From assembly GCA_000611775.1 (NCBI GenBank), contig KK106981.1, positions 10,381,183-10,445,182 on the forward strand: DNA of 64,000 bases, read 5' to 3'. Below, piece by piece: positions 17,251 through 54,211 of the stretch. The position numbers were made by a program, and so were the translations under genes. How positions within the stretch are numbered: position 1 is the first letter of the stretch; each line of letters opens with the position of its first letter. This DNA comes from Umbilicaria muhlenbergii (taxonomy: Eukaryota; Ascomycota; Lecanoromycetes; Umbilicariales; Umbilicariaceae). The notes under the pieces were generated by a model. That model was not told where the DNA came from. It did no database searches and saw nothing but the letters and a program-made list of their open reading frames with translations.

Positions 17251-17887
17251 TCAGTCAAACCCTAACGAACCCTGGCCAACTTGATGCGGCCCATCGTACA
17301 GCTTGAATTGCACAGCCCCATACCCAACCCTCCACATATACAATTCCATCCCCTTCAGAGCCGAAGACAGCACTCCATACGTGACCTGGTGGTTGTTCGC
17401 ATTCTGCACCTGCAGCACCACACGGCTGTCCCCGCGTTGATACCACGTAAATCTCCCGTCCTGCAGCATTCCGTCCCCTTTGGCCGCTATCCGTCCCGCC
17501 ACCGCTCTGTCGGCCCCTTGCAAGAGATTTACGATCGCGTCGCTGGGGATGGGCACGCCAGGGTTGAGGATGAGGTACGTTTCCGTGTCCGGAGTGCACC
17601 AGATGATGTTGAACATGTGGGGAAGTGGCCATATAGGGCCTTGGTGGTTGGCGGGCAGATTACTGGAAGGGTGAGAGTCAGAATAGCAGGTCTTGCTGTG
17701 TTGTGGGAGGGGGACTTGTCATCACTTACGTGCCCGCTTTTACGGCCGGTGCGTTCGCGCAGTACTCGGTCCGCCGAACGAGTGTGGATCGGGTGGATCT
17801 GGTGGCGCTGGTGATGGATGCTGCGAAGCTGAGGAAGGCAAGTAGAAGAAAGAAGAGCATTGAAGATAACGCGTTGGAGCTAAGCAT
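17251..17887 (-). CDS. small secreted protein, HQxT-GV family, member A
   Basis: Two exons, 17887-17730 and 17662-17251, give 189 residues. Exon 1 encodes MLSSNALSSMLFFLLLAF, a clear signal peptide, then a basic spacer ending in LVRR (a possible Kex2-like site), then the family motif EYCANAPAVKAGT. The phase-2 intron falls in the Thr codon of that motif. Exon 2 carries IIWCTPDTETYLIL, GDGML, QNANNHQVTYGV and YDGPHQVGQGSL. Only two cysteines of the mature chain are conserved in the family. Members B, C and D lie at 41.7, 42.8 and 53.6 kb. No known domain is recognised. Size, secretion and copy number suggest an effector or antimicrobial role, which is inference only. Confidence 0.85.
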
Positions 17888-18990
17888 GCTGGATGTAGCT
17901 TCTATGGTATGAAAAGCAGTATCAAAATATATTGATCTTCAAGAGGTAAGCCTCAGGAGAATTCATTGCGGATGCGCACACAGTGAACAACATAGACACG
18001 TGTTCTTCAACTCTGATTGTAAGTCTAGATCATAAAACCGCAGCAAGTGGTAAGTTTCCGATAGCAGGTCCATCATGTTTGGGAGGCTTCCATCAGCAAT
18101 TTGCTAGTGTTCCAGCAGACAGTTCCTGTTTCAACACGATTAAGCAGCGCAAGTTTGAACTGTGAAACTTCCGATATAAGCGGTAGCTCTCAACAAAGGG
18201 ACTGAGGAGACTTCAAATTCCTATCAATGAGAACGAACATTCCTAAATACAAAGTGCGGTTATTGTAGACCTCAACTGCTTTCAGAAGTGACCTTGCGGA
18301 TCTTGTTCAACGACCCCTCTGGAGGGTCAAGGACTCGAGAGCAATCCCCGCCACTGAGAAATGCACTGGTGATGCCGCAGCTGACTACTGGGCAGCACAA
18401 GTAGAGCGTCGCATGCGTCTCGAAAAGTCTCACTGCATGCAGTCGCACGAGTGATTGGGCTATCAAAGCCACAGTTGGTCTTCAGCTCCTCATTCCGAGT
18501 GGCTTGCTCCATGATCTATAGAGCAGTGGATATGACCGTCAGCCTTGCATTACACGTCGCTGCTTGCATCAGTAAGTGAAGTGGCAATGGGCGATGATCT
18601 GATAATAGATGGGCAACGACGTCTTCCCGAACAAGTAACTCGAGACGCCTGTGGCCTGGCCTCGCCTCTGGAGCCGTTGAATTAGGCGCAAATTACCAAT
18701 CCCGGGTTCTTCCCAGGGTCTGGACCGAAAGGCGTCGACGGGACATGCACTCTTGGCGTAGTTTGAGGAACGGCAATAAGTGTCTACCGGCAATATGCCG
18801 TTTACCGGAAATACTCCATTTTTCGCACTTCCTCCAATCATGGCATCCGCCGGTGCCATGTTGAGACAGTTCAATGTCCGGATTCCGGTCCAAAACCACC
18901 CCATCTCTCAACCTGGGAATACAAGTCTGATATCTAACTTACGACTTCGCGTTGTCAGATACAAAGTGTTAGTACTGCAAGACCCGGCTC

Positions 18991-19220
18991 CGAACGAGCG
19001 AAGCGAGACGCCGCTCAACGATCGGCAAACCCAACAAGCGCCCTGTGAAGACTGAAGGTCTGAACGGGCGCCCAGCTATCTTTGACGACCGAAGGGAGCA
19101 TGAGCAATCTTGAACATTCTCTGACGAGCAAAGCGAGACTTTGCTCAAAGAGCTGCAAACCCAGCAAGCGCCCTGTGTAGACCGAAAATCTGAACGAGCG
19201 AAGCGAGACCCTGCTCAAAC
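18991..19220. repeat. imperfect direct repeats with GAGCGAAGCGAGAC core
   Basis: Two copies of a roughly 80-bp unit (18991-19070 and 19120-19200) plus a partial third (19193-19220). Each has GACGAGCRAAGCGAGAC, then a CTCAA stretch, then CAAACCCARCAAGCGCCCTG, then a GACYGAA-rich end. A partial relative occurs at about 40992-41030 (GCGCCCTACGAGGACCGAAG). The GAGCGAAGCGAG core is itself nearly self-repeating. Confidence 0.75.
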
Positions 19221-19342
19221 AATCACTTTCTTCCTCTTCCTCTTAATGACGCCTGGATGTGGCACGGTAGAGGAAAATGAAAAAGGCGGTCGAGGTGATG
19301 TTGCTGGCATGGTTGGCTGCCAGCTTTTGCAGCCTTTGACAG

Positions 19343-19373
19343 CTCCAGCTCCAGCTCCAGCTCCAGCTCCAAC
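19343..19373. repeat. (CTCCAG)n microsatellite
   Basis: About five tandem CTCCAG hexamers in otherwise unremarkable sequence. Confidence 0.9.
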
Positions 19374-22300
19374 GCCCAATTTCGGGCAATACACTCCTCA
19401 CTCCTTCTTGCCGTGGATCCCTAGCACTGTTTTGCCTGCGAGGTCTGCCTAGAGGTACTTACACAGACTATGTCACATACTGACATGCTCAGCATCACCT
19501 CGGCCACCACTATACACTGGCTATGACTTGGCGCTAAGTACTACAAAGTACACAAGGCCCCGCCAATCCTTCACATGTATCGAATGCAGCCGCCTCCGCT
19601 ATGCCGCCCCGAGGCCAGTGCTACAGCTACCTTACCTACCTATCCTCGCCCGGACGGCATCACGGTGAGACGGGCATCCTCCAGTGTCACCGATGCCTTC
19701 CCTAGCAGTCAGCTTATGTCTACAGCCGAGATACGTAAGGATGTCAAGATCTACAAGGTCATGTGTAAACTCATGTCTCAGGCGGCGCTGGCCAATAATA
19801 GCATCGACGACACCCAGATACCTTGACATCCTTCATCGATGCTTCCTGCTTCCTTGTTTCGCTCTTTTCAGCTGAGACTTTCTTCGTGGCAGAGTGTGCA
19901 GGCAGAAAGGGGATGCGGCTGCCTAGGACCGGGCTGGGCTCAGCCGCTGCATGAGCTTATTTCCACCTGTGGCGAAGTCAGCGTATCGCTGATCGACCAA
20001 GACCGACATGAAACCGCTCGCTGCGCAGCCTGCGCATTTCCTCTTCAGGGCGGTTCAGCCTGTGGCTATGGTCCATCCGACTGGTGGTCCCGAGTATGGC
20101 TCCGCTCTTCGTCCTGCAAGGGCTCGGCTGGAGAAGTAGAATTGCGAGTGCAGGTGAGGGTGGGCGGGCTTCCACAGCTCCTGCGAGTAGTCGTAGCCGT
20201 GCCACCCACCCGAAAGCAACTGGTACACATTGACTCATTGCTCCATTTGGCGCTGCCGACGCCAACGATGCAACAATTGCTAGCCGGGGTGGAGGCGAAT
20301 CACAAGCACGCGTGACAGCCTTCCCGCAGCGGGGGAAAGATGGTTAAGTTCGAATTCCTTGCCAGCGCAGCAACGAGTCAGCGACACCGTGAGCCTTTCA
20401 CAAAGTCGATGAATACTAATACGAACACTCCAAGTCATGTCTATATTAAAATGCATCAAAATGCCAACGGTGAAGCGACCAGCGGCATTGTTCAGAGCCA
20501 TGATGATGATGGCAATCACGGGTCCCGCTGATCATTCGTAATTCACCAGGATGCTGATCAAGACGATTTGCGTCAGCCAACATCGCTGGCTCGGCCTTTG
20601 TCTGAACTCCGCTTGCTTCGTCCCCGTGACCAGAGCAGGAAAATGCCCAGTGGTGCCAGTGCACTGCATCCGAACTCCCGCAAAATCACCGTGATCGGGC
20701 TAGCCTGGCACCCGTACTGCGTTATACGCCTCTCTGCGCACTCCTACGCACAGGCAAATCTCTTCCGCACCCACATTCGCCACCGCTGGGAAAAGGGCAA
20801 TGTTCATCGTGGCAGGACCAGATCAAATCGGAGAGCCGTCAATCTCGCACCTTGCCACCGTAGAGGCACGAACATGAGTAGAAACAACGGCGCAGTGTGT
20901 TTGGCATCAGATTGCAAATGTGCACCCGCCGGCGGCGTGTCGAGACAGACACACGGCGGATGCAGTGTCGCAGCCAACTAGAAGGCTGGGGGATCGATGT
21001 GTCATTCTAGGCTAAGGAACGAGAGCTGTAGTCAAAACCCCCCCCGGCGCCCTCCCCCCCCCAAAAGAGCCCTCTCTCCAAAGCAGCAACGATGACTCCC
21101 ATAATACAGTGACCGCATTGCGACTTCTCCAGTCTGCGATTGCTGAGTATTATCCATCTGCACACCTCTCCACTCCCGTCCTCTCGTCTTTACGCTTGCT
21201 CGTGTTCTTGTTCCGCTTCTCGTTTGCCTCCTGGTCGTTGCTGGTCTGCACGAAAGCGACCGCGCGATTGTGAGACAAAGCACTCTCCTTAGGTCAGGCT
21301 CCCGCAACCATAGCCAGAAGACTCACAAGCTAAACAGCGAACAGTCATCGCGACGTCAGTCACTATTAAATCGCCACCCAGCCCTTCTGATCCTGCAAGC
21401 GTTTCATTCTCGCCTTTCGCCGCTTGATCATCTCCACGGACCCAGACCCCTACCGGTCCGGTCGCCGCCGCATTAGTCACAGGCTATTGGCCACTGCCAA
21501 TATCTTCAACCATATTCCCCTACTTCACCTCGGCTTAGGGTAATTCACCGTCAGAAATCCTTCGAGTCAATCATCCGCCCTCTCCACTCACTTTGCCTCT
21601 CAAATACAACGTCGCCATCCTGGCCTGACACCTCAAAGACGCTTCAAAACAGTCATATGGTGTCACGTCCCAAGTAATATACCATTCGCCACTGCCGTCT
21701 TTCACACAAACCAGTCACGATGTCTTTCGCGTCAGAACACGAACCTCCAGTCGTCAGTCTTACAAAGTCCACCGTCACCGTCTATTCGAACGATTCCCGT
21801 GTTGGCGGACTCATTTGAATCAATCCCACCGTGTGCATCGATCCTTCGACCTTCGCGACAGCAAATACGTTGTCCACGAGGTTCATATTCAGTTGGATTC
21901 TACTGCTACATGGTCCGGACGGTTCTCTACGGTTGATTTGTACAGACAGACACTGGAGGTATCCACAAGAACATATCGATTTCGGTCCTCGAGCTATCTG
22001 GGCACCACATCATTTTATCATCTCGTATAATACGTCGGTTTCCTGAAGCTCGAATCGTCTTTGGTCTATTCTTGTCTAGATCCCATGTGTTATAGCTGCT
22101 CCGGCGTATTGCATACCTAGGTTGACTGCGGTTATCTTCGCGGCCTCTTGGTGTACATCATCTTGCGATCAGCTACTATACTTCGGGTTTCACTGGACGT
22201 GTTTAGGTGTCAGAGGACCTCCGTCGCCTCTCTACGGCGGAATACTGTACTCGAACTCCTCGAACGGTTTGCCTAACGGTCATCTCCACCCCCCTGCCTC

Positions 22301-22408
22301 GATTGATCTTCTCTTCCGCGCCAGATCAAGCCGAAACCGCATCAAAGCGAACATTCCGCACATCTCTACTACATCACAACCTCCCCCACGACGTGCGCTT
22401 CCCCTCCG

Positions 22409-24669: not shown

Positions 24670-25201
24670 TTGAGTTGGTGGGAGTGTGGATGGGGATGGG
24701 GGTGGAGGCGGAGGGGGGCGGGTTGTGGCCTAAGCTTGGCTTGGCTTGGCTTGGCTTGATCGTCTCGCTATTCGCAATATCTTGTCATCTATCTTATGTG
24801 GAGGGGGGGTGGAGTGGAAGGAATGGGACCGAATGGAATGAAGGGCAGGAGTGCATATTGCTTGGCGCGGATGGGTCTGGTCTTTTGTATCCATCTCGGC
24901 GTGGATCGGTACGGTTGGGACTGATATCTTTAAGTGGGGTTGGGGTTGTGGAGGGATGGGGAGGGGATGGAACGGTGAAAGGATGGAGATGGGATACGGG
25001 TGTATTTAGTAATACCATTGGAACCTTTTAAACTTCTACATGGGTCTGAAATGCTGGATTGTGCCGTGATGTGGTCGCTTCACTAGAGGGGTGTTTGAAA
25101 GACGGAGGATGGAGGAATGTAGCAATCGGGTCGACGAGAAACCTAAATCCACATCCAAGTCCTTTCGATGGTGGTAGGGGTACAGGTCTAGACGCCACTG
25201 G
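24670..25201. other. intergenic between cyclin and DUF2461 gene
   Basis: No gene. G-rich 3' sequence after the cyclin includes five tandem CTTGG units at about 24741-24766. The two flanking genes converge here. Confidence 0.6.
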
Positions 25202-27155: not shown

Positions 27156-27459
27156 TATTGTAAAGGGACGGAGGGGAAGTAGAAGAGGATTGCGGGATTT
27201 AGTGATTTTGGTTTGGTTGAGGGGAGCTGGAGCGTGCAATGGGTTGATGGGGAGGTTGTGGGAGGGTTGGCATAGAGATAGGAGGCGCGTGAGGTAATCG
27301 AAGCGGACACGCGCTGGGACTAGCTAGATCTGGAAGGTTTATCAACTTCTATCAAATGCGGGTTTTCGGTTGGCCCTATCATCGTAGACCAACTTCAGGG
27401 CTTGGTAACTAGGAGTCCAACACAAAAATGCTATAGCCCCTGCATGTCGACCAGCAAGT
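27156..27459. promoter_or_regulatory. shared divergent promoter, DUF2461 / TYW3
   Basis: A 304-bp gap between two divergently transcribed genes must hold both promoters. It is mostly G-rich on the plus strand near the DUF2461 start and balanced near TYW3. I see no TATA box or clear operator. Confidence 0.5.
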
Positions 27460-29345: not shown

Positions 29346-30773
29346 TTATCGCTTGTCGTGTTTTGCACTTCGAAGTCGTTTCTTCTTTGCAGCTTTAGGT
29401 TTATCGATTGACTCAGGCAAGATGGTGGGAGCAACTTCTTTGGCACGTGTGTATGCGTGGAGGTCATCCTTAGTCCGGCCTGCGCGCTCCTGGGCCCAGT
29501 CTTGAGCATTTCGAAGATGCTTGTATGTCTCCTTAAAGTTTTCCAACGAAGTCCCTGGGTTGTGGGTTTCCAACGGGTATTGATGATATTCCAGACCTGA
29601 GCCCTTCTTTACCACATGATTGCCGTAAACATGGACCGATTCGTTGTTAAGTCCCACAGTTAGAGCTTGCGTCTTGCCGAAAAACTCGGCCGGGTTTTTG
29701 TTCATGTGCTTATGGGTTTCGTATGCGGCATCAACCATCAGTGCTCCGTCATAGGCACACTGCATCTCTGCTGAAGTCATATTGCCGCTAGGGCCTTTCC
29801 ATTCAGCACAGAAGGTCGGCATGGCCAGCTTACACTGAGTCGGGGCAAGTGCACCACCAAGTGCGTCAAAGGCGTCCGGTGGGTACTGGTTCCTGCGGTA
29901 ACTTTCCGAGATGTCTGGCTTGGCATCAGTAAGCCCAACCGTAAGAGGGCTCTCAACCTCGGTCCACTGGAGATTGTAACAGGCTATATAGTCTTGCCTG
30001 TCAGTGTTGGTAGGGTGCTGAGCAAGTATAGGCCAGACATTTGCTTCCACCGAAAGCTCATTCTCACCACACCCGACTTGCTTGACGTATTGATTGTAGG
30101 CTTTCTGGTCTGGTGAATCTGACGAGTCTCGTGCCCTGTCCAAATACTCTTTGACCATAGTGATGTCCTCGGGTTCTTCTGCGTCGTGACGACCGTAGAT
30201 GATGCCATTTTTGTGGAGCTGGATTCCAAAAGCTTTGTCCATAGTGCTATTGATAGTGGTGTTGGTAGTGGTTTTGGCAGTGGTTTCGGCAGTGGTTTCT
30301 TCAGTGGTAGTGGCATTTTTGGACAACGCGGTCAACGGGTCTTTCCTGCGTCGCCCCATGTCTGATCGAGAATGAAACTTTAGATTTCTTATGGTCAAAG
30401 GGGCTCGCTTTAAATGGGGCTTCTCGTCGGTGGTGCTATATTTCTCGTTTTGAGAAAGGGAGTTCGCAGGATGCTCGTTGCCTTGAGTTGCGGGAGGCGA
30501 TAACGACTTCAAGTGAAAGTGTGAGTCGGTGGATTTCGAAGAGTGGTAGACGTTTAACTTCTGCTGTGGCAATATACCTTCTGCTGACCATGTAAGTGCA
30601 TACCACCAGGTTAGAATGGTTATAATGGACTGACCGTGCCCGTTGCGCTCCAGATCCTTTGTTGGCTTTCTCCGCTTGGACGGGAAAATTTGGAAGGAGG
30701 GTTTGCGTTTTCGAAAGGACGGCGGGATATCACACGCGGGAGAGGTGATCAGGGTGCCAGATCGAAGCTGCAT
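29346..30773 (-). CDS. DUF7924-like protein (PD-(D/E)xK nuclease-like), member 1
   Basis: One long frame of 475 codons. The N-terminus is basic (SFRKRKPSFQIFPSKRRKP). A Thr-rich linker (TEETTAETTAKTTTNTT) precedes the conserved region, which has YNLQWTEV, KPDISES near 284 and the E-x-K element FCAEWKGPSG near 320, followed by AEMQCAYDGALMVDAAYE. The D...E-x-K...(Q)xA layout is that of the fungal DUF7924 domain, which I recall as related to PD-(D/E)xK nucleases; the function is unknown. A likely 51-nt intron (complement 30634-30584; GTCAGT...CTAAC...TCAG) lies within the frame. It is a multiple of three and stopless and encodes a hydrophobic ILTWWYALTW patch. Splicing would give 458 residues. 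The C-terminus is Lys/Arg-rich, which suggests a nuclear location. Confidence 0.7.
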   Translation of the reverse strand: MQLRSGTLITSPACDIPPSFRKRKPSFQIFPSKRRKPTKDLERNGHGQSIITILTWWYALTWSAEGILPQQKLNVYHSSKSTDSHFHLKSLSPPATQGNEHPANSLSQNEKYSTTDEKPHLKRAPLTIRNLKFHSRSDMGRRRKDPLTALSKNATTTEETTAETTAKTTTNTTINSTMDKAFGIQLHKNGIIYGRHDAEEPEDITMVKEYLDRARDSSDSPDQKAYNQYVKQVGCGENELSVEANVWPILAQHPTNTDRQDYIACYNLQWTEVESPLTVGLTDAKPDISESYRRNQYPPDAFDALGGALAPTQCKLAMPTFCAEWKGPSGNMTSAEMQCAYDGALMVDAAYETHKHMNKNPAEFFGKTQALTVGLNNESVHVYGNHVVKKGSGLEYHQYPLETHNPGTSLENFKETYKHLRNAQDWAQERAGRTKDDLHAYTRAKEVAPTILPESIDKPKAAKKKRLRSAKHDKR

Positions 30774-39121: not shown

Positions 39122-40516
39122 TTGCGCCTATGCATTTTCTTCCATTCATCCCTCAACAGCCTCCTCAGTATGCTGGATTGTGAGATCAAGTCCCCTCAGC
39201 CGATCCGGCCGCTGAAAAGAAAAGCATCGCAGCTCGATGCTCTCGAGACTCCTCTGTGCAAAAACTCGTATGTCGATCTATGGCTGTCGAGAAGCCTCCC
39301 CTCGATCAACCGTGGCAGGAGCCGCTCTGACAGCTTCCTTATCTTCAAGGACCCAGAGCGACAAGCACTTCGGCAGAATGGGCCGGAACCTGCTCGTCCG
39401 CTGAGCAAGCCTATTAATGCCCGGTCACTGCAACCAGAGTCGGTTCGATATTCACCAGCTCAATCACCATCTACGGTTTACGATCCTTATCAATCTCAAG
39501 ATACCTTCTATACTCCCTCAACATCCTCTACCCCGGCGTCATATTCTTACGAATCGAATATGTCATCCCCCGACTCGAAAAATGGCCCGAACAGATCGAA
39601 ACGAGTGCAATCCTCAACATACAGGAACGCCCTCGAAAGCCATGGGGTGTACGTTGACTCTTATGGCATTACAACGCCCGACACCGTTCAGACCCATGCG
39701 ACGAACATCATCAGCAGGAAACGATCCTCTCCTGGTTTGAGCGGGCAGCAGATTGAGTCTACTCGAAAGCAGCTATCCGATCTCGCCAGTACAGATGAAG
39801 GGATCACACGGGCAGGGTTCACAGGAACATCACTCTTCCCGACGAGAACAGATTACGGTGGCAGAGTCGCCGTCGGTTCTGGGTTGCGTTTTGATCGTGC
39901 CGGTCTTCCCTTTACTAGCGGCTTCAACTATCCACCAATTGTAACTCCTGTTCCTGACCTCCATTACGGGTATCCTCGAAGCAGTTTTCAACATCCCGAG
40001 TATGCAACGATGCAACACAGCCGCCTTAAACCATACAGTGAACCAAATACAGCCAACTTTTGGCCTTTTTTCGCAGTCGAGTTTAAATCTTTATCTCGTG
40101 GCGGGACTTGTTGGGTGGCAGAAAACCAGAATGCTGGGACTGGTTCCCATTGCGTCAATTCTATGGAAATTCTCATGAACTACGCCAGAGGTCAAAAGCA
40201 ACGTCGGATTACCGACACTGTGTTCTTTTCTTGTGTTGTCGACACAAGCGCAGCCTCCATCTGGGTACACTGGATGGACTTGCACGACGACCCGCGATTT
40301 TCCAGCTCCGAGATTGACCACTTTTCCTTGAAGAAACCGAAGGACCTCGTCGCATTTCGGGCAAGCGTCAGAAACATCATTGACTATGGGATAGACCAGC
40401 GCTTGACTATCATCAAAGATGCTCTCAATGATCTTCTTCCGCAGGTTGCTCAGTGGGATCAAGAGGATGAGGAATCCACACTCCAGAACAGAGATGATGG
40501 TGGTGCTGTGGAGTAG
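39122..40516 (+). CDS. DUF7924 protein (PD-(D/E)xK nuclease-like), member 2
   Basis: A single-exon frame of 464 codons. Residues 18-170 are disordered and basic/Ser-rich (RPLKRKASQLDAL, then Tyr/Ser/Pro-rich). The conserved domain runs from about 165: YRNALESHGVYVDSYG, then PVPDLHYGYP near 276, NTANFWPFFAVEFKSLSRGG near 308-327 and ENQNAGTGSHCVNSMEIL. It ends with DTVFFSCVVDTSAASIWVHW and a C-terminal helical stretch, FRASVRNIIDYGIDQRLTII. The PD...E-x-K...NQ-x-A order marks a PD-(D/E)xK-like fold. Function unknown. The first Met may not be used: MLDCEIKSPQ at residue 17 (39170) is a better start, because the preceding residues are hydrophobic leader-like and not shared with family members I recall. 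Confidence 0.8.
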   Translation: MRLCIFFHSSLNSLLSMLDCEIKSPQPIRPLKRKASQLDALETPLCKNSYVDLWLSRSLPSINRGRSRSDSFLIFKDPERQALRQNGPEPARPLSKPINARSLQPESVRYSPAQSPSTVYDPYQSQDTFYTPSTSSTPASYSYESNMSSPDSKNGPNRSKRVQSSTYRNALESHGVYVDSYGITTPDTVQTHATNIISRKRSSPGLSGQQIESTRKQLSDLASTDEGITRAGFTGTSLFPTRTDYGGRVAVGSGLRFDRAGLPFTSGFNYPPIVTPVPDLHYGYPRSSFQHPEYATMQHSRLKPYSEPNTANFWPFFAVEFKSLSRGGTCWVAENQNAGTGSHCVNSMEILMNYARGQKQRRITDTVFFSCVVDTSAASIWVHWMDLHDDPRFSSSEIDHFSLKKPKDLVAFRASVRNIIDYGIDQRLTIIKDALNDLLPQVAQWDQEDEESTLQNRDDGGAVE

Positions 40517-41718
40517 CTGGGCAGACAGTGACGCTCATGATGGGATAGACTCCGTTGAGAATTCATAGCACGGTGTGGTGTTGGCAAGGACAATCCAAGC
40601 AAATGCGAATGGGAATCCCAGACGCCGCTGTCCACATATACGTACCCACCCCTCCCGCCCCCCAAGTCTGATTTGGCCCCAGCCAACAAAGTGCTGCAAA
40701 AGTTCCGGTAGCTGGCTAGCTAGATTATTACCTTGATGGTATACTACTGAGGCGAGGATCTAGCTGGCTAGTTGCAGGCGTTCTGGACGTTATGCAGGTC
40801 ATGCGGGATGCATTGTCGTGCCAGTCATAGTCAGGGTTTCTTGGCTGGTTGGCCCCGTCTCTCCTGCGCCCCTCCTCCGCCGTAGAAGGGCGTCGGGATA
40901 GGGATTTTGTGGGAGGGTTTCAGCAGGGCTTTCCTTTTTGACATAGGTTTAGTCAACACGAGTCGATACCATGCATACCTCTCATACACCCGAAGGCGCC
41001 CTACGAGGACCGAAGGTCTGAGCGGTCTGAGAATTCAGATATGCGCACTCTACGAGTCGTTTGTTGGCAAGAAGATGAACCAACTAGCGCTACCAAGGAG
41101 AGCAGAGGAATGGTATTGTTACTATCGCTGTCCCCACCAATGTCCATCTGAATATTGATAGATGTTGGCGTTAGAATCTTTTGCCCACACCGTCTTGCTT
41201 GAAGGGCTGAGGGGGGGTCCGGCAGACTGTGACGGGTGCTGCGAAGATGAGGTAATGTGCGATAATTCAAAGCTAAGGCGTCTATATGGAATGGAAAGTT
41301 CCATGCAGAATCCCCCGGGTTTATTCTGAGGTGTGCCGGTTGCATCATGAGCTTCCATTCGAGCTTCCCCGGCCCTCTTCTATTCGGGTCATCCTCGTCG
41401 CTCAGACCATGTTTCACCGGGATACTACCAGATACTGCCCTTACATTTCCGCCTTTGCGATAGAGCCTCCTCAGCCGCATGTGTCGGGATATTTGCGACC
41501 TATCCGCGGGTTTCAAGCTAAGACCGTTGCGTCATGGTATGACTGTACGGTGTGCGGAGCGCAGGCAAGGTCCAGACAACAAAACCAGAGAGGCTGCAGA
41601 GGTGATCATAAGTAGAGAAACTGTCGTGCCGGAGGTCAACATCGTCTACTCGCTGCTACTACCTGTTCCCTTCTCTCCAAACGCGCTTCAGCAATAGACA
41701 CAAGGATTTCAAGCCATC
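40517..41718. other. intergenic upstream of secreted gene B
   Basis: No gene is supported. A minus-strand frame at 41001-41516 is long (171 codons) but has no recognisable motif and overlaps other open frames. About 40992-41030 resembles the GCGCCCTG...GACCGAAG part of the repeat at 18991-19220. Two GCTGGCTAG(C) motifs lie near 40711 and 40763. Confidence 0.45.
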
Positions 41719-42400
41719 ATGCGAGCTTTTCTTTCTATATTAACGATCTTGGCCGTGACCCTATCACTGGTTCTCGCCGTCCCTGCGCCCGATACCCCGG
41801 ATCACGCTGGCCTTTTAGCCGCATGGGGCACATACTGCGCTAATGCCCCGACGGTCCCAGTAGGAACGTAAGGCGATAACCACTTGACATCTCCTTCGTC
41901 TAGCTATACCACTCACGTCTACCAGTTTGCTTGACCCAAATCTCGTTGTCCCGATCACTCAATATGCCAAGCTGCCAAAGCTGGCCCTGAGAGTCTACTG
42001 GTGTTGCCCCTCGAGCCGCACGTACGTGGCCATCAACTACTACAACGGCATCCTTCCGGTCAGCTGGAATACCATCCAGGACCGCCTTAAGGGGGCCTTT
42101 GGCCGGACCCAGGCGAAGATCAAGACCGGCGGCGACCGCCCCATCCCTAGCGGTTTCTTTTTCTGGGGTGACGATCCCGACACGAAGGGAGTCTACATTC
42201 TCACACAGAATATCGACAATCATCAGCAGACATGGGGGGTACTCGGGGCGACGATTACGGCACTGCAGGACTTTAGCCGGACGCTGGATGGGTTGGGAAT
42301 CCCACCGCGGAATTTGGGTTTGACTATTTACGATGGGAACAATGCAGTTGGGAGGGGAAATCTGGCCTCTGCGCGCGTTCTTCCACGCTCTCGTCCGTAA
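41719..42400 (+). CDS. small secreted protein, HQxT-GV family, member B
   Basis: Two exons, 41719-41867 and 41926-42400, give 207 residues. Exon 1 encodes the signal peptide MRAFLSILTILAVTLSLVLA and then TYCANAPTVPVGT, with the phase-2 intron in the last Thr codon as in members A and D. Exon 2 carries RVYWCCPSSRTYVAINYYNG (an extra Cys compared with A and D), GVYILTQNIDNHQQTWGVLG, and YDGNNAVGRGNL. The tail is slightly longer than in the other members. It stands 377 bp upstream of member C in the same direction, a tandem pair whose sequences have diverged strongly. No enzymatic motif is visible. Confidence 0.87.
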
Positions 42401-42777
42401 GAATCGCCGAGTGTATTTGATAGAGTTGTGTTGTTCTGGGAGTCGCCACAGTTTAAACGAGTGAGATAATCAACGCCATCATCAGAGCCTCCAACAACCG
42501 GCTTTAATGAAGAAGAGTGACGTAACATCATGGAGGTCCGAGGAGCCTACCTTATATTATGGATGGCACGAATAGGTGACAGTTGATGAAACATCTGGGG
42601 TTTTCCCGCACACGCGCGGCTTGCGACCGTGGCTGTGCTGGTATACCCGGCGCCCTCTTTGATGAATGCATATCATCACCTGCAAGCAGTGAATCTCTAT
42701 TATTACGACGCCGGACTCATCACGAATCTTCTGGTGTGACAAAATCAAACTCGGTTAGGTCTGAGCTCGAGGTCGGA
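42401..42777. promoter_or_regulatory. spacer and promoter between secreted genes B and C
   Basis: A 377-bp gap between the tandem secreted genes. No ORF worth calling and no clear TATA box; it must hold the terminator of B and the promoter of C. Confidence 0.45.
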
Positions 42778-43383
42778 ATGCTCGCACTCAATCTCTCCGC
42801 CCTATTAGCCTTGGCATATACCGCCTGGGCTCTTCCACTCACCATCGACACATCTTCACTAATTTTAAGAAGCCCACCTCTGTCTAATGCGCCCCTCACT
42901 CCGTCCGAAGGGTGCGCTGAAACCCGTTTCACCCCTGCCGTGCGTCCGTCCCTCAGCTAACACTCTCCCAGCCTCTTCGACCGCCGCAACACTCTCGCTG
43001 TCCGCACCCCGGGCATCGAGGCCTACGTCGCTCCCGGCACCCAGACCAAAGTCCTGATCAAAGCCGGCTGGGTGGCCTCGAACATGTACAAGGTCCTCGA
43101 CCTCCTCCGGGCGACGATCAAGTTCGCCAAACTGCGGATTGCCGAGCGCGGAGACGGGGTCGTGCCCATCACCGACTTGGTCGCCCTGGGGAGCGCCATG
43201 GTGGGCGAGGGCGTGCATCTGACGCTGACGAACGCCAATAATCATCAGTTGACGTATGGGGTCGTCCTGGCTGCGGCGATGGCGCTGTCGGATTTTTTTG
43301 CACAGTCTGGCGGTTATCAGTCGGTCGACTTTCAGATTATTGATGGCAAGACCCTTGTGGGGACGGGCAAGATTGCCGCTTGA
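42778..43383 (+). CDS. small secreted protein, HQxT-GV family, member C (divergent)
   Basis: Exon 1, 42778-42911, encodes the signal peptide MLALNLSALLALAYTAWALP. Exon 2, 42972-43383, is 412 nt, the same length as exon 2 of member A, and encodes TLTNANNHQLTYGVVLAAA and IIDGKTLVGTGKI. The frame requires the phase-2 donor GTGCGC at 42912, just before the codons for GCAETRF that resemble the CANAP motif of the other members. The more attractive GTGCGT at 42940 would break the frame. So this copy has either moved its donor or lost the first conserved Cys by other means, and it also lacks the WC motif. Spliced this way it has 181 residues. It may be an atypical or decaying paralogue. Confidence 0.7.
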
Positions 43384-43939
43384 GCTGCGAAGTGGTGGGG
43401 GGCTTTCACTGGGGGAGCGATGCTTGGCAGGATTGCATTGTTCGTGGGAGTAGTGTGGTCTGAGGATAGACAAGAGCTTTCTACTGCTGTGTAAGCTTTA
43501 GCTCCATTTGTCTTTGAAATGGAATGATATGGAAATGAGGGCGCACTCATGTTTATAGTTCGCTGTCCGAGATCATAAGAGCTAACTCTGACATATCACT
43601 ACCGCTTATGCCGTGTGGAGCATATTTCCGATTGTGGTTAGTCTGAGCCTGTAATAAAAAATGATCCACCGTGAGGGGACCTCTCGCTTGAGGCATGAGC
43701 TTGCATGACTAAGCAAATAAGCGGACGGGACGACGAGTTTTAATCACGTGCAGGCCGTAGCCCTACCGGCTTTAATGTTATTCCCGCTAAACGTCATTAT
43801 ATACCAACCTCGGGGGCTGATGCAGGCGTAGACACGCTTAAAGGCGCCACTGTTTCATTTATATTATGTTTCAGGTTTACCCAATAGAGATTTTAGATAG
43901 ATATGTAGATTGTAGCCTCATGGCATTTGAATTTGATTT
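43384..43939. other. intergenic after secreted gene C
   Basis: Nothing coding. It is AT-richer than the gene, with no tract of note until the inverted repeat at 43940. Confidence 0.5.
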
Positions 43940-43999: not shown

Positions 44000-44086
44000 T
44001 GTTTGTTTGAAAGCACGCGTTTTTAAACCACCAAACATCATACTTCAATACAATATGACATCATTTACAGTAAGTTATAACCTCAT

Positions 44087-44305: not shown

Positions 44306-44339
44306 CTCACTGTTCTGCTTGTGAGCGTATGCTAACAGT

Positions 44340-46459: not shown

Positions 46460-49400
46460 ATGGATCCCATTTCAACGGGGGTAGGTATCGCCGCGAGCTT
46501 GGTTACGCTGCTTGGACTTGCTGCAAACAGCTGCAAGACTCTTCACGAACTCCAACAAAAGCTACGAAGCGCGCCGGAGGACATTCAGCGGCTAGTGTTG
46601 AAGGTAGAGACGTTCAAGGCATTACTAGCAGTAACTGAACGAGAAAGCCGCAACCATGGCTCGGACAGAGTCCCCCTGGAACTTCAGCAGATGTGGACCA
46701 AGTGCGAGACAATTATGCGGAAAGACCTCGAAGCTTTTGCAGAACTAGCCAAAAAGATGAAGGATACACTCGACGGTCCGACCATTACTGGGAAGACTGT
46801 TAGGGCCAGGGCTCGGAAAATTCTCTCAGAGCAAGCCGTGCGAAAATGTGAAGATGCCTTCGATCAGTACAAAGGGGTTCTTGACTCCGTGCAGGCAATT
46901 CTGAATGGGTATGGTCTCACTGAGAGTTACTACCGAATAGTGCCTTGTTAAAGATACTTAGCTCACAGACTCGCGCCGCCATTGCGTCAATTGATGAGCA
47001 AGCACGGAAACTCAACAACATACTTGGCGAAACCCAGGCATTTCGTTCTGATACCCGAGCCGTACTCAACCAAATCCAGAGCGAGGTATCGACTGTAAAA
47101 GGCGAAACATGCGGTAGCATGCCAGATGCCGGTGTCATAGGGATATTTTCCTACGGACAAAGCCAAGGGCAAGAGGGCTTGCACAAGATCGCCAATCTCA
47201 ATACTGAAGTGCAAAACAGTTCTAGTATTGTCAAAAGTAGGATTGGTCAGCTTGAGAAAGAGATACGTGCGATCAAGTTGGGACTTATCAACATGGGACA
47301 GTGTCGCAGTGCTGAGTACCGTGACATCCGCAATCTTTTCGCCGCGGTAGGAGAGAATCACTCGGGGCTAGAGAACGCGGGGCTAGAGAACCGCCTTGGA
47401 CATATCGAAGCCGAATCACCGTGTCAAATCGAGCCAAACCTGCACCGGTCGAAGACGTCGAGGATCGGCTTCTCGTCAATACGCCAGCAGCGCAGAGAAC
47501 ACACAACACGCCGGTGTTGGAAGACCGTTCACTGGAAATGGTCAATATACGAATTTCCCATAGGAGTGTTGAGTGTTGAAACCTCGCACGAAACAGCATC
47601 CCAGCCTTCCAACCCTGAATCCTCCCCCGAAGAGCGAACTTCAGTAACCTTTATCTTCTCTCCTCCGAAATGGATTTGGAGCTCGTTAATCAAAGTCTGT
47701 TATGCAATGTCAACTGAAGGTCATGCTATTCCATATTGGCAGCGCACACAGAGTGGCGCGGTGGGTATACTACCTCCTAAGCTCACGGAATATCTCGGAG
47801 ACGATGACTTGATGGCCGTTGGAGGTCTTCTCTCCCACCTATCTTGGCAAGAAGTTCGCGATTTAGCAAGGCATCTCAAAAGATTCGGAAGAAGGCCGTT
47901 TGATATCTCGAGTGTTTTGAAATATGAACCAGGTTATGTCTGGACGCACAGGTGCCTCGCTCTCTTTATTTTCTGCAATGGAAAGCGATTGCCATTAGTG
48001 TACGTATTAGTGCTATGTGTTTTCGAGTCGTTCAAGGGTTTTCTACTAATTTACGGGGCAAATCCTACACAGAATACAGTTGATGTTCAGTCGACCTCCA
48101 AGCTACAACTGCTTATCGACCAAGAAGGGTTTTGGCTTCAGAATAGGACATAGTTGCCATTTGGTTGACAATTACCTTGAGGCTCACATTTCGGATCTGA
48201 TGAACAGACTAGACATCAACATCACCCCGCCAAACTTCTGTGATTCCCCTACGACGCCCCGGGGATTTCAGCACTTTAAAGAGTATGTAGCTCAGCATAT
48301 TGACTTCTTCAGCTACGAAAAGCTCTCAACCATGAACAAGTGGTGGATCAGTGCGTTGATGTACAGTGATGTTCACTTCAAGAACTTGATTGAGCTTCAC
48401 TTAGGCAGCTTTCAGACTCCCAACACTCTCAAAGGAACCTGTGAAAATACAGCATCTCTACGAGGTGACTTTGATTACTCACGTACTATCGGAGAAGTCA
48501 TGTCTGCAAGCAAGCCGGACCGTACAGTCTTTTTGCTATGGATTAGCACGTACGGAACGGGAGCAATGATGGATGCCTTTATCTCTGCCGGCATTGATCT
48601 GAGCGAAAGCGAAGGTTCTTGCGCCTCATATCTGGAATTCGCAGCTGCAGCACAGAACTTGTCCACCTTCCGGGTATTACTGAGAGCAGGCGCTAGACCG
48701 AATAACGGGGTCGATGCTCTCAGGGACTTCGTTGATTGTCACCGTGCGAGAGAAGATGACATACACTTTCTCAGCGGTCTCCTTCAACATAGCTCCCGAC
48801 GAGATTATCATGGCCTTTATACGGATTTTCTTGCTGAGCCGTACTCATTCCTTTGCAAATACTTCATTCCAACGCGTCTGCAGCACTACCCTGTTTCTGC
48901 GTTACAGAGCTGTCGCCTCATCGCCGAGAAATTTGTGGCTTCAGGCTGTGCAACATACTCCTATCCACCGTACCACCGCAGCTACTACCTCGGGCCCGAT
49001 GTCCTTCGCGCCTTAGCACACGACCATCTCTGCCTTCTCAAGTGTCTGATCGAAATGGGAGTAAGTCTAGATTATGTGGGCTGCGCTACGTTGACGAATG
49101 GCTACACTGCACTGCAGACTGCGTTAGAGTTAGGATATGTGGACGCCCTTGAGGCTCTGTTAGGCAGCACCAGTGGTTATGCCGACCGCAAATCAGCACT
49201 CTTGCGTGCGTATCAAAATGCAAGGTGCAATCTTACGTCAACTCATCCACGGCGAGCGCGAGGGATTGAGTCGATTGACCCAAGGAGGTATCTCAGGAGT
49301 TATGGCCGAGACCTAGAGTGTAGCTATTGGCAAAGATACTTAAGAAGCGGCGGAGCAACTTATGAGATTGATCTTGAATGCTATAATCTCATCTGTAACG

Positions 49401-49834
49401 CTCTTAAGGACATAGGCGTGGAAATTCTTGTCGATTCTCAGGAGGACTGCGCCAAAAGAGTTGACATTGGTTGTCGACAGAGACGTGGTAAGTACCGGAA
49501 CCTCACGCATCCAGGCTATCTTCTGCGCTGTAAAGATGTGGCATTGCACCTCTACAATGCGCTTCGCCGTCGAATGTACACTCCCTTCAATCGCGGTCTT
49601 GTTCGTTATACCCGAGGGTTTCAACATAGGGTGCACGAACTTACCAGAATGACAACGCTCGATTACCTTTTGTTAACATGGAGCGTGGTGGAAGTAATCC
49701 GAACACTCTTCTTTTGCATGGTTTGGGATACCGGAGTCTGGCTTTTTAAGATTCCTCGACCGCCTAAAGCGGTTCGCTACTCTCTAATCGTGTTTTTCCT
49801 AGCTACGCTATGGAGGTACTGCATACACGAGTAG
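46460..49834 (+). CDS. PigL_N-type / ankyrin-repeat protein, NLR-like without NTPase
   Basis: Three exons, 46460-46908, 46941-47999 and 48073-49834, give 1089 residues. Residues 1-150 (MDPISTGVGIAASLVTLLGL, then LRSAPEDIQRLVLKVETFKALL) form the helical N-terminal domain seen on fungal STAND proteins (PigL_N/helo-like). A coiled segment follows (ASIDEQARKLNNILGETQAF ... SSIVKSRIGQLEKEI). Residues 380-500 are a unique region. The C-terminal half has divergent ankyrin-like repeats, for example STFRVLLRAGARPNNG and NGYTALQTALELGYVDALEALL. Hydrophobic segments near the end (LLLTWSVVEVIRTLFF and SLIVFFLATLW) may be membrane-spanning. No P-loop is visible, so the usual NACHT/NB-ARC core is absent. 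The first intron would be only 32 nt, shorter than normal, so that junction is the weak point of the model. A role in non-self recognition is inferred. Confidence 0.72.
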
Positions 49835-49885
49835 ACTCTCGTCGTGGTTGACGACGGGTGACGTTGTCGTCATGAGTACAACCTT

Positions 49886-50025
49886 TCCTTCTACACTCAA
49901 AACCCTTCTCTTATGCGCAACTGTTAGAAAGAGTCCCTAACAAAGGGAGTCAAAAACTCCACGACCTGTTCTTCTACACCCGGATCTCTGCCCTCATGTC
50001 CAAGTGTTAGAAAGAATTCCAAACC
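49886..50025. repeat. imperfect 82-bp-spaced direct repeat
   Basis: CTTCTACAC...GTTAGAAAGA at about 49889-49940 recurs at about 49971-50023 with substitutions (AACTGTTAGAAAGAGTCCC against AAGTGTTAGAAAGAATTCC). Two units only, between the 3' ends of two convergent genes. Confidence 0.7.
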
Positions 50026-50069
50026 AAGAACAGTTGAAAAATCAACGCTCGAGGATCCTCACATTCTAA

Positions 50070-51460
50070 TCACGCCATCTTATTATACCCCGCCATCTCC
50101 ATCATAACCTCCTCATACCTCTCTAACTCCCCCTTCAAAAGTCCTCTCGTCACTACACCCCCGTCCAGCCCCTCAGCATCATCTCTCACATCAAAACACT
50201 CCTTCGGCCCCGCTCCAACCGCCCGACCTGCTCCTTCCATCAGCATAAATCCTTATAAACCCCCTCACGCAGCACCTACCGCACACTCCCTCATCCGCAC
50301 AACACCTCACCACCCCCGCCACCACATCCTCCGCCCTCCCCACCGGCACCCCCGCCGCCCGAAATGAGCCAATCGACTCCCGCGTCAGCGGCGTCTCCAT
50401 CAGCCACGGCGCCACCATGTTCACCCGCACTCCCACCTCCCGCATCGGCACCCGGATGGCGCGGAACAGTCCGCGCACGGCCCATTTCGAGGCCACGTAG
50501 TCGGCCAGCGGCGGGATGTCGACGTAGCTGCCTAACGAACCGATGAGGACGAGCGATTTTGTCGGCGGGGCTGGGGCCGGAGGGGTGGGCTGGGTGGAGG
50601 GGAGGGGGGCGGACAGGGGGAGGTAGTGTTGGGCGAGTTTGGTCGTGTAGTAGAGGCCGAGGTAGTTCACTTCGAGCGTGGCGAGCGGGGGAGGGGCGGG
50701 GTCGGCGGAGGAGGCGCCGGGAGGAGGCACGAAGGGAGAGCCGTTTACGCCGGCGACGGCGACGACGGCGTCGATGCTGTGGGTCGGGGCGGCGGTGAGG
50801 GTGGCTTTGAAGGCAGCGAGGTGGGAGGACCAGGAGCGGACGTCGGTGGGGATGAAACTTACGCTGGATCGATTGGGGGGTCCGTTAGTGTGAGGGGAAC
50901 TGGAAGACGTGGGGACGGAGAACAGAGGCGTGGGACGGGAGGATTGGGAGGAGAGCAGGGGGGGCGTACGGGTATCCTTGCGAGGTGAGAGAGTGAGTGT
51001 ATTTGGTGCCGAGGGTGGAGTTTATGTCGGCGATTGTGACGCGCGCGCTTGAGGGGGGAGTAGATGACGTTAGCGGACTGGGTCTCTTGGGTCAACGGAG
51101 GGGCAAGAACCCTAGCTCGCTCAGTCGCAGCACGATGGCGGCACCGAGGCCGGACGCTCCGCCCGTGACGAGAACGGTTTTGTCGCGAAGATTGGAAGTG
51201 TCGAGGGGTTTGTTGAAGTCGATTATACCCGTCGTGGCGGAGGGTGAAAGGCTGGGTGCCGTTGTTTCTGGAGAGTTGGGCCGTAGGCTGCTCTCGTGGA
51301 AGCACTGCGAGCTTGTCTTGCCGTGGAAGAGTGGGGGTATAACATATCTCAGATTGCGAGAATGAGAAGAGACGGAGTGGTACGGCGAAGCAGGGAGACT
51401 GCGGGATGGCGAAGCTGTAAAGCTGCAAAGCTTGGTAGCTGCGGTTCTCACACGATGCAT
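50070..51460 (-). CDS. short-chain dehydrogenase/reductase (15-PGDH / averantin-DH-like)
   Basis: Four exons, 51460-51111, 51047-50970, 50863-50280 and 50227-50070, give 389 residues; the lengths sum to exactly 390 codons. An N-terminal basic, Ser-rich stretch of about 90 residues could be a mitochondrial leader. The Rossmann fold begins at DKTVLVTGGASGLGAAIV, with TGxxxGxG at about 99-106. RVTIADIN gives the acidic NAD-preferring residue after beta-2. VAVAGVNG stands in place of the usual NNAG-like motif. VLIGSLGSY holds the catalytic Ser, and YVASKWAVRG holds the catalytic Tyr and Lys near 264 and 268. The C-terminus reads RRCC-free CGRAVGAGPKECFDV after splicing. A Pro-rich insertion (PLPSTQPTPPAPAPPTK) sits before the Ser strand. 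The likely activity is NAD-dependent oxidation of a hydroxyl group; the substrate is unknown. Confidence 0.87.
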
Positions 51461-53564
51461 TTCGTATTATTCTGAGACAATTAGATGCTTGAAGCCAAAG
51501 TCTGGAAACAGCACACGAGCACGTAGACAAAGACTGGAAAACATCTAATTCCTCTTGAAATAAAATCCCACAAATGAGCGATTAAAGTCTACAACAGATC
51601 ATTCACCCCTCCCCCCCCCCCAATTACCACATCTTCTTGGTCTCCTGTCAGACTGCCAGCGCATTTCCACAGATGAATTGGTGCATTGACTTAACCTGGT
51701 AATTCAAATCATTCCGCTTTCAAGACTGTGCATGAGGTGTGTGAGCACTAACGCTGGAAAACAAAATGAAGTAGCATTTCAGTGTGGTTTAACGTGCCCG
51801 GGGTTGAACAAGGTAGGCGAGTCAACTAGTGATAGGTTGTCCTTGAGCCACTGGGATTATACACTCTAGTACGCAATTCCCTATTTGGCCGACTAAAAGA
51901 AGACAGGTCCTTCGCAGTTTTTATGTGTTGTGACACGCTACGATCCGATGTATTCCACACAAGTTAGTAATACAGATAATATACAGTCTATAAGCCAATC
52001 CTCACTGTATGCCTAGAAAAAGGCGGAATTCTACCTCCACAACAGCTCGCAAACCTCGTAAGCTTTCTTGTCATTCGTCAAACATCACCAGGAGTACCTA
52101 TTCACAACACCCCATCCATCCATCCTCGAAACATGACCGCGAAAACCAAAAGTGCCACAAGTGCCCAGCCTGCTTGTGTCTCCTTCCAGTCGGAGATTAG
52201 CACAAGCGCACCAAACTGATTATAGCAAGGATTAACATACAACAAGCTGAATCATCTACTACAACTCGACGAGCGCACGGGCCGAGTATGAAGAAATTTT
52301 GGTGTACAATTTCGGCCGAGGGGAGAAAAGAGTCCAATGAGTGACCTCGTTCCTTTTGGGCGAATGTGATGACCCGGTGCCAAGTCCTGCTGCGGCGACG
52401 TCAAGGACAGCTCGCGATGAATTGATAGCGTGAAAATCGCGAAGCTGATCGTTTTGAAGGACGAGGTCTGGGATGGTACGTCCGGAGGAACGACTTCGAG
52501 AGATGGCGCTTGATATCTCTAGTCGCAGTAGACCCTCGCTCTTGCCCGCCTGGAGATGGTAGTGGGGGCACTCCGGACTGTCTTTGCGGACACGAATGAT
52601 ATGAAGGTTAGAGATAGCTGCGTCGAGTAGGGCATGTGACGCAGTAACGTATTGCAGAGTGCAGTTAGAGTAAAGTTCTGGAGCGAATTGATAAAGGTAG
52701 AAATATATTTAAGCTTCGTCGCAAACGAGTCAAAAGTTTCGTTGAGATATGCACAACGTGACCAAAGACGAAATGTCGAAGAAGGGCGCTGCGAACTGGA
52801 GAAGAACGCGTGTGATGGCTGCACGATGCATCTCTGGCTTTTTATAAAGAACTAGAGAGCAAATTATTTCGTACTCTTCATGCCGAGGATTTCCTAGAGA
52901 CGACCGCCACGGGCTTCCTAAAAGCCGCTGACGCTGGTGGCTGCTTTCTGTGGCATGGTAGAATCCGGGGCGTTTTCGTCAGGCTGTTGATCAGTATAGA
53001 ATGAGCCCATTATAGCTCATTGTAGGACACCATCGCCAAACGGGGCTACGAACGGGGTTCCGGGCTCGGGTTTGGCGAAGACCCTGATTGCGGAGAGCGA
53101 GATTCACGCTTGTCTCGGGGTCCGGTCTTGCAAGCCATTGTAGTCATAAAGGTTGATTGTTCGGGAGTGGTTAGATGATGAGGATGGAAGTACGTTGAGC
53201 TTGTGTTGGGCTCCAAGTTGCAGGTTGGAGGTTGAAATAACCATCGCGCTAGGGTCTCAATGCCCTTAGTGCCGAACTATGGGAAAGCTAATGGCTACCG
53301 TCACCATCGCTCGCAGCCTTTGGGCCAACCAGCCGAACGATACTATGCATAAGGTGGGCTCGATACAGTCACTATGCATAGGACCGATATGCATCCTTCT
53401 CTGGTATACTTATGACGTAGCATAGCGCTCCTGCAAGAAGGAGCAAGCGAGAACGCCTTGGAATTTTTGGATATCTACCGGAATACCAGGGCCGCTCCTT
53501 GAAGCAATATCATACCGGTGCCAAGCCTGCGGTTTCGCATCTTCGCTATCGGGCAGCCATCAGA
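51461..53564. other. 2.1-kb stretch without a supportable gene
   Basis: No frame here shows family resemblance. A 13-bp C-run lies near 51609-51621. The minus-strand frame at 52519-52824 (101 codons) has no recognisable motif. A GCATAGGACCGATATGCAT-like partial palindrome lies near 53375-53396. Confidence 0.45.
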
Positions 53565-54211
53565 TTAGTGAATTGACCCTTGTCCAACCTCGTTCTCCCC
53601 GTCATAGACCAAGAAAGCCGCCGCCCCAGACCCAGACTGTATCATGTAATCTGCCAAAGCCAAGAGAGCGGAGCCAAAAACGCCCCACGTGATCTGGTGA
53701 TCATTGGCATTCGATATACGAATCGTCAGACCGGCATTTGCCTTCACCCAGTATCCACCGGCTCCAATTAAACCATCGCCGTGAAGGGCAATATTGCGAG
53801 AGACTGCCTGGTAGACCTGAGCGATTGAGCTGGTCATTGTTTCGCTGACGACTGCGTTGGTGACTCTTAGAATGACATAGGTCGCGCTGTTGGGCGCACA
53901 CCAGCGTTGTGCCTCACCCCGGCGTGGTACTATGACGTGTCGAAGCATGTCCTCGATGTTCCAGCCTGGCTTAGCTATGTTCTGGGAGTTGGGGCCTACG
54001 AAGCTGAAGCGGGAGAGAATTGTCAGTGATGAAGCGCGTGGAGGATAGGTTGTAGTACATACGTCCCAGCAACCACATCGGGGAAGTTCGTGCATGGTCC
54101 CACGGCTCGAGAGGACAGCGATAATGACCTGTCTTTGATGATGGGTGATGCGAAGGCGAAGACAGCAAATTGGGCTAACGCCGCAAGAATCGAAAGGAAG
54201 AGGGCTCGCAT
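53565..54211 (-). CDS. small secreted protein, HQxT-GV family, member D
   Basis: Two exons, 54211-54063 and 54003-53565, give 195 residues. Exon 1 is 149 nt, the same length as in member B. It encodes the signal peptide MRALFLSILAALAQFAVFAF and the motif GPCTNFPDVVAGT, again with the phase-2 intron in the Thr codon. Exon 2 has QRWCAPNSATYVIL, ALHGDGLIG, RISNANDHQITWGVFGSALL and YDGENEVGQGSI. It lies closest to A and B in motif content and keeps both conserved cysteines. A longer open frame runs upstream of exon 2 through the intron, but it would lose the signal peptide, so the spliced form is preferred. Confidence 0.87.

Follow-up and report, generated by a model that had tools for sequence, protein, structure and literature searches.

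Four small genes of an Umbilicaria muhlenbergii window belong to a genome-wide family with a common promoter element and a predicted KP4/Gnk2-type fold

Introduction

A stretch of 64,000 nucleotides from the ascomycete Umbilicaria muhlenbergii (GenBank assembly GCA_000611775.1, contig KK106981.1, positions 10,381,183 to 10,445,182 of the forward strand; referred to here as the window) contains four genes, members A, B, C, and D, that encode small and putatively secreted proteins with a common HQxT motif. The original prediction, made from the letters of the window, described them as a four-member family that arose by local duplication followed by fast divergence, as seen in effector or antimicrobial families. 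This raises the question of what the four genes are, how many relatives they have, and what such proteins might do. Our data indicate that they belong to a family of approximately 168 loci that share a promoter element, are predicted to share one fold, and look old.

Results

Family size and consensus

The DNA pattern for HQxTWG[VIM] occurs at 88 places in the genome and that for HQxT[YF]G[VIM] at 47, giving a total of 135 motif places across all 7 contigs, while the reversed control patterns occur at 0 and 1 places, respectively. Valine occupies the final position at 134 of the 135 places. The pattern NNHQ[FILMV]TY was found at 20 places, and a looser motif pattern at 137 places compared to 3 for its control. 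When exon 2 of the central member (L062) was used as a protein query, 150 of the 190 candidates found at first look were scored; they yielded 151 matches, of which 150 were listed. Among those 150, 35 lack the exact motif and 8 contain an in-frame stop; 20 motif places lie outside that list. After both sets were merged and a probable chance occurrence and a locus counted twice were taken out, approximately 168 loci remain in the 34.8-Mb genome, and this number is a lower bound (i.e., at least 168) since 40 candidates were left unscored. The four-member family is thus true of the window only. One further member, at C1:10663895-10664251, lies less than 30 bases from the end of its 10.66-Mb contig.

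We read out 90 distinct loci of the 135 motif places and modeled 76 of them by script. The best model has a phase-2 intron at 70 of the 76 loci. Some of the first-script models are wrong (e.g., L001, L003+, L008, L037, and L077). The cysteine and protease-site counts below are based on 72 phase-2 models. A filtered set of 61 models was defined by a score above 6.0, with member C (L006, score 5.7) added and L001 removed by hand; L048 and L079, named for removal as well, already fell under the 6.0 cut-off. The exon-2 alignment holds 49 of 54 good segments, with L013, L040, L045, L066, and L071 excluded by hand.

Across the 54 good models, the consensus consists of a signal peptide, LxPRSQ-CANAPxTvAGT, the intron, and a linker with R and LxPR, followed by WCAPxSxTYviLt, lLxxAyxxixxhI, and GDGvIpgGxFxw, and then by GlxlxvwNaNNHQxTWGVLgAAixALxDYM and FxIyDGxNeVGxG. 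Their pairwise identity has a median of 35% and a maximum of 54%. Since these sets were picked by the motif, its conservation within them is by construction. Among 20 members fetched from the 35 that lack the exact motif, the histidine is kept in 18, the glutamine in 18, and the first aspartate and the DG turn in all 20, while the threonine position holds Thr in 17 and Ser in 3. The residue before the valine is the most variable in these 20 (11 Gly, 6 Ser, 2 Arg, 1 Ala). Two members, L094 and L104, have AGG[RH][RH] in place of NNHQ and keep both aspartates and the DG turn; it is possible that they form a subfamily with another ligand.

Four members in the window

The four genes were located as follows (positions are those of the window).

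17251-17887, minus strand: member A, 189 amino acids; exon 1 17730-17887, intron 17663-17729 (GTAAGT...CAG), exon 2 17251-17662; motif NANNHQVTYGV; Cys 43 and Cys 75
17372-17391, minus strand: HQVTYGV codons of member A
41719-42400, plus strand: member B, 207 amino acids; exon 1 41719-41867, intron 41868-41925, exon 2 41926-42400; motif NIDNHQQTWGV; Cys 40, 76, and 77
42221-42240, plus strand: HQQTWGV codons of member B
42778-43383, plus strand: member C, 181 amino acids; exon 1 42778-42911, intron 42912-42971 (GTGCGC...CAG), exon 2 42972-43383; motif NANNHQLTYGV; no cysteine
43243-43262, plus strand: HQLTYGV codons of member C
53565-54211, minus strand: member D, 195 amino acids; exon 1 54063-54211, intron 54004-54062, exon 2 53565-54003; motif NANDHQITWGV; Cys 40 and Cys 85
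53680-53699, minus strand: HQITWGV codons of member D

The anatomy given in the original prediction largely held: all four genes were confirmed at the positions claimed for them, each has a single phase-2 intron (58-67 bases in the best splice models), and each ends in D-G-x3-V-G-x-G. A hydrophobic, signal-peptide-like N-terminus was seen in all four, on visual inspection and with a simple score for hydrophobicity. The claimed signature N-x-N-[ND]-H-Q fits A, C, and D but not B, which reads N-I-D-N-H-Q. Member C has a weaker intron donor (GTGCGC), reads S-N-A-P where C-x-N-x-P is expected, and is missing the W-C motif.

A common promoter element

An unsupervised word count upstream of the 61 filtered genes returned TTGAAACA and its variants. 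We found that TGAAACA is the commonest promoter 7-mer, present within 400 bases of 31 of the 61 genes compared to a mean of 3.4 and a maximum of 9 in mononucleotide shuffles. Within 600 bases upstream, 35 of the 61 genes carry 43 sites (40 distinct), 24 of which lie 200-299 bases from the ATG; 14 sites occur in the 600 bases downstream. TGAAACA remained the top word (29 of 59) after genes with a common intergenic region were dropped, and of 1711 promoter pairs just 2 are similar. None of the bases flanking the word is invariant, the most frequent ones at the fourth and fifth base after it being G and C (20 of 43 sites each). The enrichment is therefore not plain promoter homology. The whole genome contains 8985 copies, or one per 3.9 kb (5616 for the reversed word), and 1 of 13 hand-picked starts of non-family open reading frames (ORFs) in the window has a copy within 600 bases. 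The copies at the window members are the following.

18127-18133, minus strand: TGAAACA of member A, 246 bases before the first ATG
41410-41416, minus strand (the plus strand reads TGTTTCA): TGAAACA of member B, 309 bases before the ATG
42587-42593, plus strand: TGAAACA of member C, 191 bases before the ATG

No copy was found within 600 bases upstream of member D. Two further TGTTTCA words (TGAAACA on the minus strand) lie 16 bases apart downstream of member C, at 43851-43873, with no tested ORF start within 600 bases; another gene may start nearby.

A longer form, TGAAACN3-4TGCGA, is present in 8 of the 61 upstream regions (shuffle mean 0.05). It occurs at 31 sites genome-wide and its reversed control at 28, so its total number is not above chance. 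Twelve of the 31 sites lie 375-621 bases before a family exon 2 on the same strand, compared to 0.11 expected; seven of these belong to genes that yielded the form and five to other members. A second enriched upstream word was TGCGCTT (15 of 61 genes within 400 bases; shuffle mean 2.7, maximum 6).

The optimal site of yeast Ste12, the pheromone response element, is described as TGAAACA (PMC12712937), and Ste12 of Cytospora is described as binding an effector promoter region that holds TGAAACA (PMC10789715). The family promoters carry this element above chance, as would be expected of a Ste12 regulon. Co-regulation of the family members is well supported, and the identity of the element suggests that a Ste12-type factor may bind it.

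Predicted fold

Sequence searches of Pfam, NCBIfam, and PDB gave scattered weak matches, none common to several members (e.g., Sphericase at E 0.014, and Phage_lysozyme2 at E 0.0027 in 1 of 49 exon-2 segments). KP4 (PF09044) gave no match for the four full proteins (E up to 10) or the 49 exon-2 segments (E up to 1), and DUF26 (PF01657) gave no Pfam match in the same proteins and segments. The original prediction named no described family with this signature, and the signature was absent from the family libraries and paper texts searched. No paper was found that contains the motif strings or describes the family, with supplements and most subscription journals outside the scope of that search.

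AlphaFold models were obtained for exon 2 of member D (predicted local distance difference test, 78.3; predicted template modeling score, 0.74) and of member A (88.8 and 0.81). Both models were built from one and the same 22-sequence set, and they have an identical strand-helix order, that of one sandwich fold. Using VIA-align, the D model matched Zt-KP4 with Z 6.9 (root mean square deviation [rmsd] 3.6, 96 aligned), the mushroom lectin Y3 with 5.8, and ginkbilobin-2 (Gnk2) with 5.7, while the next row scored 3.6. The A model matched Zt-KP4 with Z 7.0 (rmsd 3.3, 96 aligned), the DUF26 domain of PDLP5 with 6.8, PDLP8 with 6.5, Gnk2 with 6.4, and Y3 with 5.5, while the next row scored 3.4. For both models, only Zt-KP4, the ginkbilobin-2/DUF26 group, and Y3 thus stood above the structural background. 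In strand and helix order, and in global superposition on solved members, the predicted models agree with the beta-(alpha-beta2)2 sandwich of the KP4/Gnk2 type.

Foldseek rows for KP4, Gnk2, and DUF26 in the PDB gave template modeling (TM) scores of approximately 0.4. Thioesterase- and FabZ-type folds, which ranked high by Foldseek E-value against the PDB, were rejected given TM scores of approximately 0.13-0.21 and an rmsd mostly above 12. No viral model matched in Foldseek at E ≤0.001. The prediction that the family folds like antifungal killer toxins and like the antifungal proteins of plants is well supported by these models. The question of whether a profile search would place the family in a known group therefore has two answers, negative by sequence and positive for a known fold in the predicted models.

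Relation to KP4 and other known systems

The genome has its own KP4 proteins, with 14 Pfam matches on contigs C1, C2, C3, C4, C5, and C7, of which 12 (L105-L116) were fetched and aligned. Profile-profile comparison of the family with these proteins (hhalign) gave a probability of 0.4-0.7% and a score within the range of shuffles, and did not show homology to KP4 by profile. The KP4 alignment has six invariant cysteines, whereas the 72 family models mostly have two after residue 25 (two in 38 models, three in 15, four in 4, one in 8, and none in 7). Furthermore, the family has motifs of its own (NxNNHQxT[WYF]GV and DGx3VGxG), its phase-2 intron has a common position, and its likeness to KP4 killer toxins (PF09044; Zt-KP4, PDB 8ACX) lies in the predicted fold. 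The family is probably a KP4 relative by fold, while by sequence it is not a KP4 member. Six of the 12 KP4 upstream regions contain TGAAACA, at nine sites.

Ginkbilobin-2/DUF26 proteins are plant proteins with a cysteine-rich motif. Their antifungal or receptor-like domains (PDLP5, PDLP8) resemble the family in predicted fold and not in Pfam assignment. The mushroom glycan-binding protein Y3 (5V6I) also resembles it in predicted fold and has no sequence match to the family. Gnk2/KP4 orphan candidate effectors, as described in PMC10462633, are likewise secreted ascomycete orphans of low sequence identity that are defined by structure. The same survey calls massive expansions rather rare, whereas here approximately 168 copies fall under one sequence profile.

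In family architecture, the IGY proteins of Marssonina brunnea are similar, being described as 107 divergent small secreted proteins of one genome with common motifs and gene structure, of which 1.5% of pairs exceed 50% identity (PMC4367982). They differ in their motifs (IGY, QMxIP, and LRFS) and in having mostly three exons. Membership in that family was rejected since our models have one intron and the motifs, as described there, do not appear in our consensus. The RALPH/RNase-like effectors of Blumeria are alike in the extreme expansion of one fold and differ in that the fold is RNase-like and the fungus an obligate biotroph, according to PMC9816061.

Age of the paralogs

Each of 18 environmental relatives best matches one particular family member, at 53-84% identity: six match L027, five match member D, three match L069, and one each matches L079, L041, L011, and L066, with the last three assignments less clear-cut. 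The closest relatives of D are P0001-P0004 and P0015. Within the genome, identity to the best paralog has a median of 43% and a maximum of 62% among the 92 of approximately 168 members compared, and closer paralogs may exist. Members B and C, which are neighbors, share 27% identity. Each stands far down the other's list of 91 relatives (73rd and 80th), and mutual best hits were found in 2 of 11 neighboring pairs tested (L063 and L080). Since the environmental relatives are closer than the paralogs, at least these lineages would be older than the species split and would have been retained. The paralogs look old, with the environmental relatives as their presumed orthologs, and these comparisons contradict local duplication followed by fast divergence as the origin of the four genes.

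Cysteine pair and Kex2-type sites

We found that the cysteine of the CxNxP motif (exon 1) and that of the WC motif (exon 2) tend to be present or absent together: among the 72 models, 53 have both, 10 neither, and 9 one (p = 4e-6), and among the 61 filtered models, 51 have both, 7 neither, and 3 one (p = 3e-7), in a test that ignores the relatedness of members. Of the seven members without these cysteines, one has another such member as its nearest relative. The paired loss suggests a disulfide between the two cysteines.

LxxR, described as the expanded Kex2 motif (PMC8528282), occurs before the intron position in 49 of the 72 models (shuffle mean 7.5, maximum 14), after it in 52 (shuffle mean 17.5, maximum 26), and on both sides in 38. 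This enrichment corresponds to the site part of the definition of Kex2-processed pro-domain (K2PP) effectors, in which an LxxR, KR, or RR site follows a disordered N-terminal pro-region (PMC8528282), and it suggests Kex2 processing. Because the cysteine pair is lost together and LxxR is enriched, the mature product may be a two-chain protein with one disulfide.

Discussion

We favor the reading, with a probability of roughly one half, that these genes form a Ste12-wired family of the KP4/Gnk2 fold whose products act on other cells, perhaps through the binding of glycans. In known proteins, KP4 is described as targeting calcium channels in both fungal and mammalian cells, while Gnk2, Y3, and LDL are described as carbohydrate-binding toxins (PMC13211469). 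In the lichen fungus Cladonia grayi, one KP4-like gene has a value of 150 in a table of a co-culture study (PMC6652019). A Ste12-type factor would bind TGAAACA, mostly 200-300 bases upstream, and the proteins would enter the secretory pathway by their hydrophobic N-termini. A Kex2-like protease could then cut at the LxxR sites on either side of the intron position, with the C(x)N(x)P-WC disulfide keeping the exon-1 peptide joined to the core. The core would present a conserved polar edge, formed by GD(G), NxNNHQxT, and the turn at DG. This edge might bind the same ligand in all members, for which a glycan of the cell surface is the most likely candidate given the predicted fold and the conservation, while the surface between the motifs, which varies among paralogs, might tune the target. 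Such an arsenal would be released against other organisms when the fungus grows invasively, in contact with them, or antagonistically. A fuller version of this reading is more tentative, its chances falling somewhat short of even. It holds that an unnamed sequence family of the KP4/Gnk2 superfamily, grown to approximately 170 old, retained genes in one fungus, forms one regulon of the pheromone/invasion mitogen-activated protein kinase pathway via TGAAACA(-N2/3-TGCGA), with a core partly shared with the genome's KP4 toxins, and that its products make up a combinatorial set of lectin-toxins, each of two chains joined by a disulfide, in which a single conserved glycan site is combined with variable surfaces.

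The original prediction survives in part: a coherent family of small, putatively secreted proteins and its effector or antimicrobial character are supported, the latter by the predicted toxin/lectin fold and the Ste12-type element, while four members and local duplication are not supported. Searches for plant-attack enzymes, which give lower bounds, found cutinase at at least 2 places, at least 2 matches to AA9, and no PF00544 pectate lyase match in the genome, which thus gives no clear sign of an ordinary plant pathogen. These counts, together with the activities known for the fold, favor a lectin-toxin arsenal over factors for mating, effectors that manipulate immunity, or enzymes. Effectors directed at a plant or algal host, which would alter its immunity or development and neither kill nor bind glycans, could account for several observations, since Gnk2/KP4-fold orphan candidates are described in all 20 ascomycetes surveyed (PMC10462633), Ste12 controls effectors (PMC10789715), and the family size recalls the powdery mildew RALPH/RNase-like effectors (PMC9816061). 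We nevertheless consider this doubtful because few plant-attack enzymes were found, and because a conserved polar site and old orthologs suit an arms race less well.

The promoter element would also suit factors for mating or hyphal fusion, such as Ste12-induced surface glycoproteins or lectins that serve recognition, adhesion, or compatibility between cells of the same species. The top promoter word is the pheromone response element (PMC12712937), and the paralogs look old and retained. Ste12-type factors, however, are described as driving effector genes too and as factors that filamentous fungi require for pathogenicity (PMC10789715), and approximately 168 divergent copies with a toxin/lectin fold seem to exceed what mating would require, which makes this explanation unlikely. 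The near-invariance of His, Gln, two Asp, and Asn at approximately 35% overall identity, in 49 aligned members selected by motif and 20 that were not, could also point to an enzyme with a catalytic His/Asp site on the sandwich fold. Yet no enzyme is among the structural matches clear of background, and the two members with AGG[RH][RH] for NNHQ have a frame that is open over the match, so that catalysis seems quite improbable. Recent duplication in a small local cluster is the most improbable of the explanations considered. Some clustering does exist, with 18 of 127 gaps between motif places below 3 kb compared to 1.6 expected (using estimated sizes for contigs C4 and C5) and with two neighboring pairs that are mutual best hits. 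Against this stand the spread over all contigs, the other nine neighboring pairs, the distant ranks of B and C, and the fact that no two of the 92 members compared exceed 62% identity.

A survey of 21 species is described as finding near species-specific effector families of at least 100 members only in two obligate biotrophic fungi and an oomycete (PMC9816061). Another huge family is found here, in a fungus with few plant-attack enzymes detected. The common promoter element means that deletion of one regulator should probe much of the set together, and the conserved site raises a direct biochemical question, namely which ligand it binds. Old paralogs with recognizable orthologs make a history of recent arms-race duplication testable. 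With the motif and profile, a branch of the KP4/Gnk2 fold missed by the searched sequence libraries also gains a sequence handle.

Other genes in the window

Apart from the family members, the window encodes on the plus strand (1902-6842) an NLR-like protein with a PGAP1-like domain and matches to PF24883 (NPHP3_N), GPIID_WHD, and WD40/beta-propeller. Two DUF7924 (PF25545) proteins lie at 29346-30773 (minus strand) and 39122-40516 (plus strand), and an ORF at 62258-63862 (plus strand) resembles both by eye.

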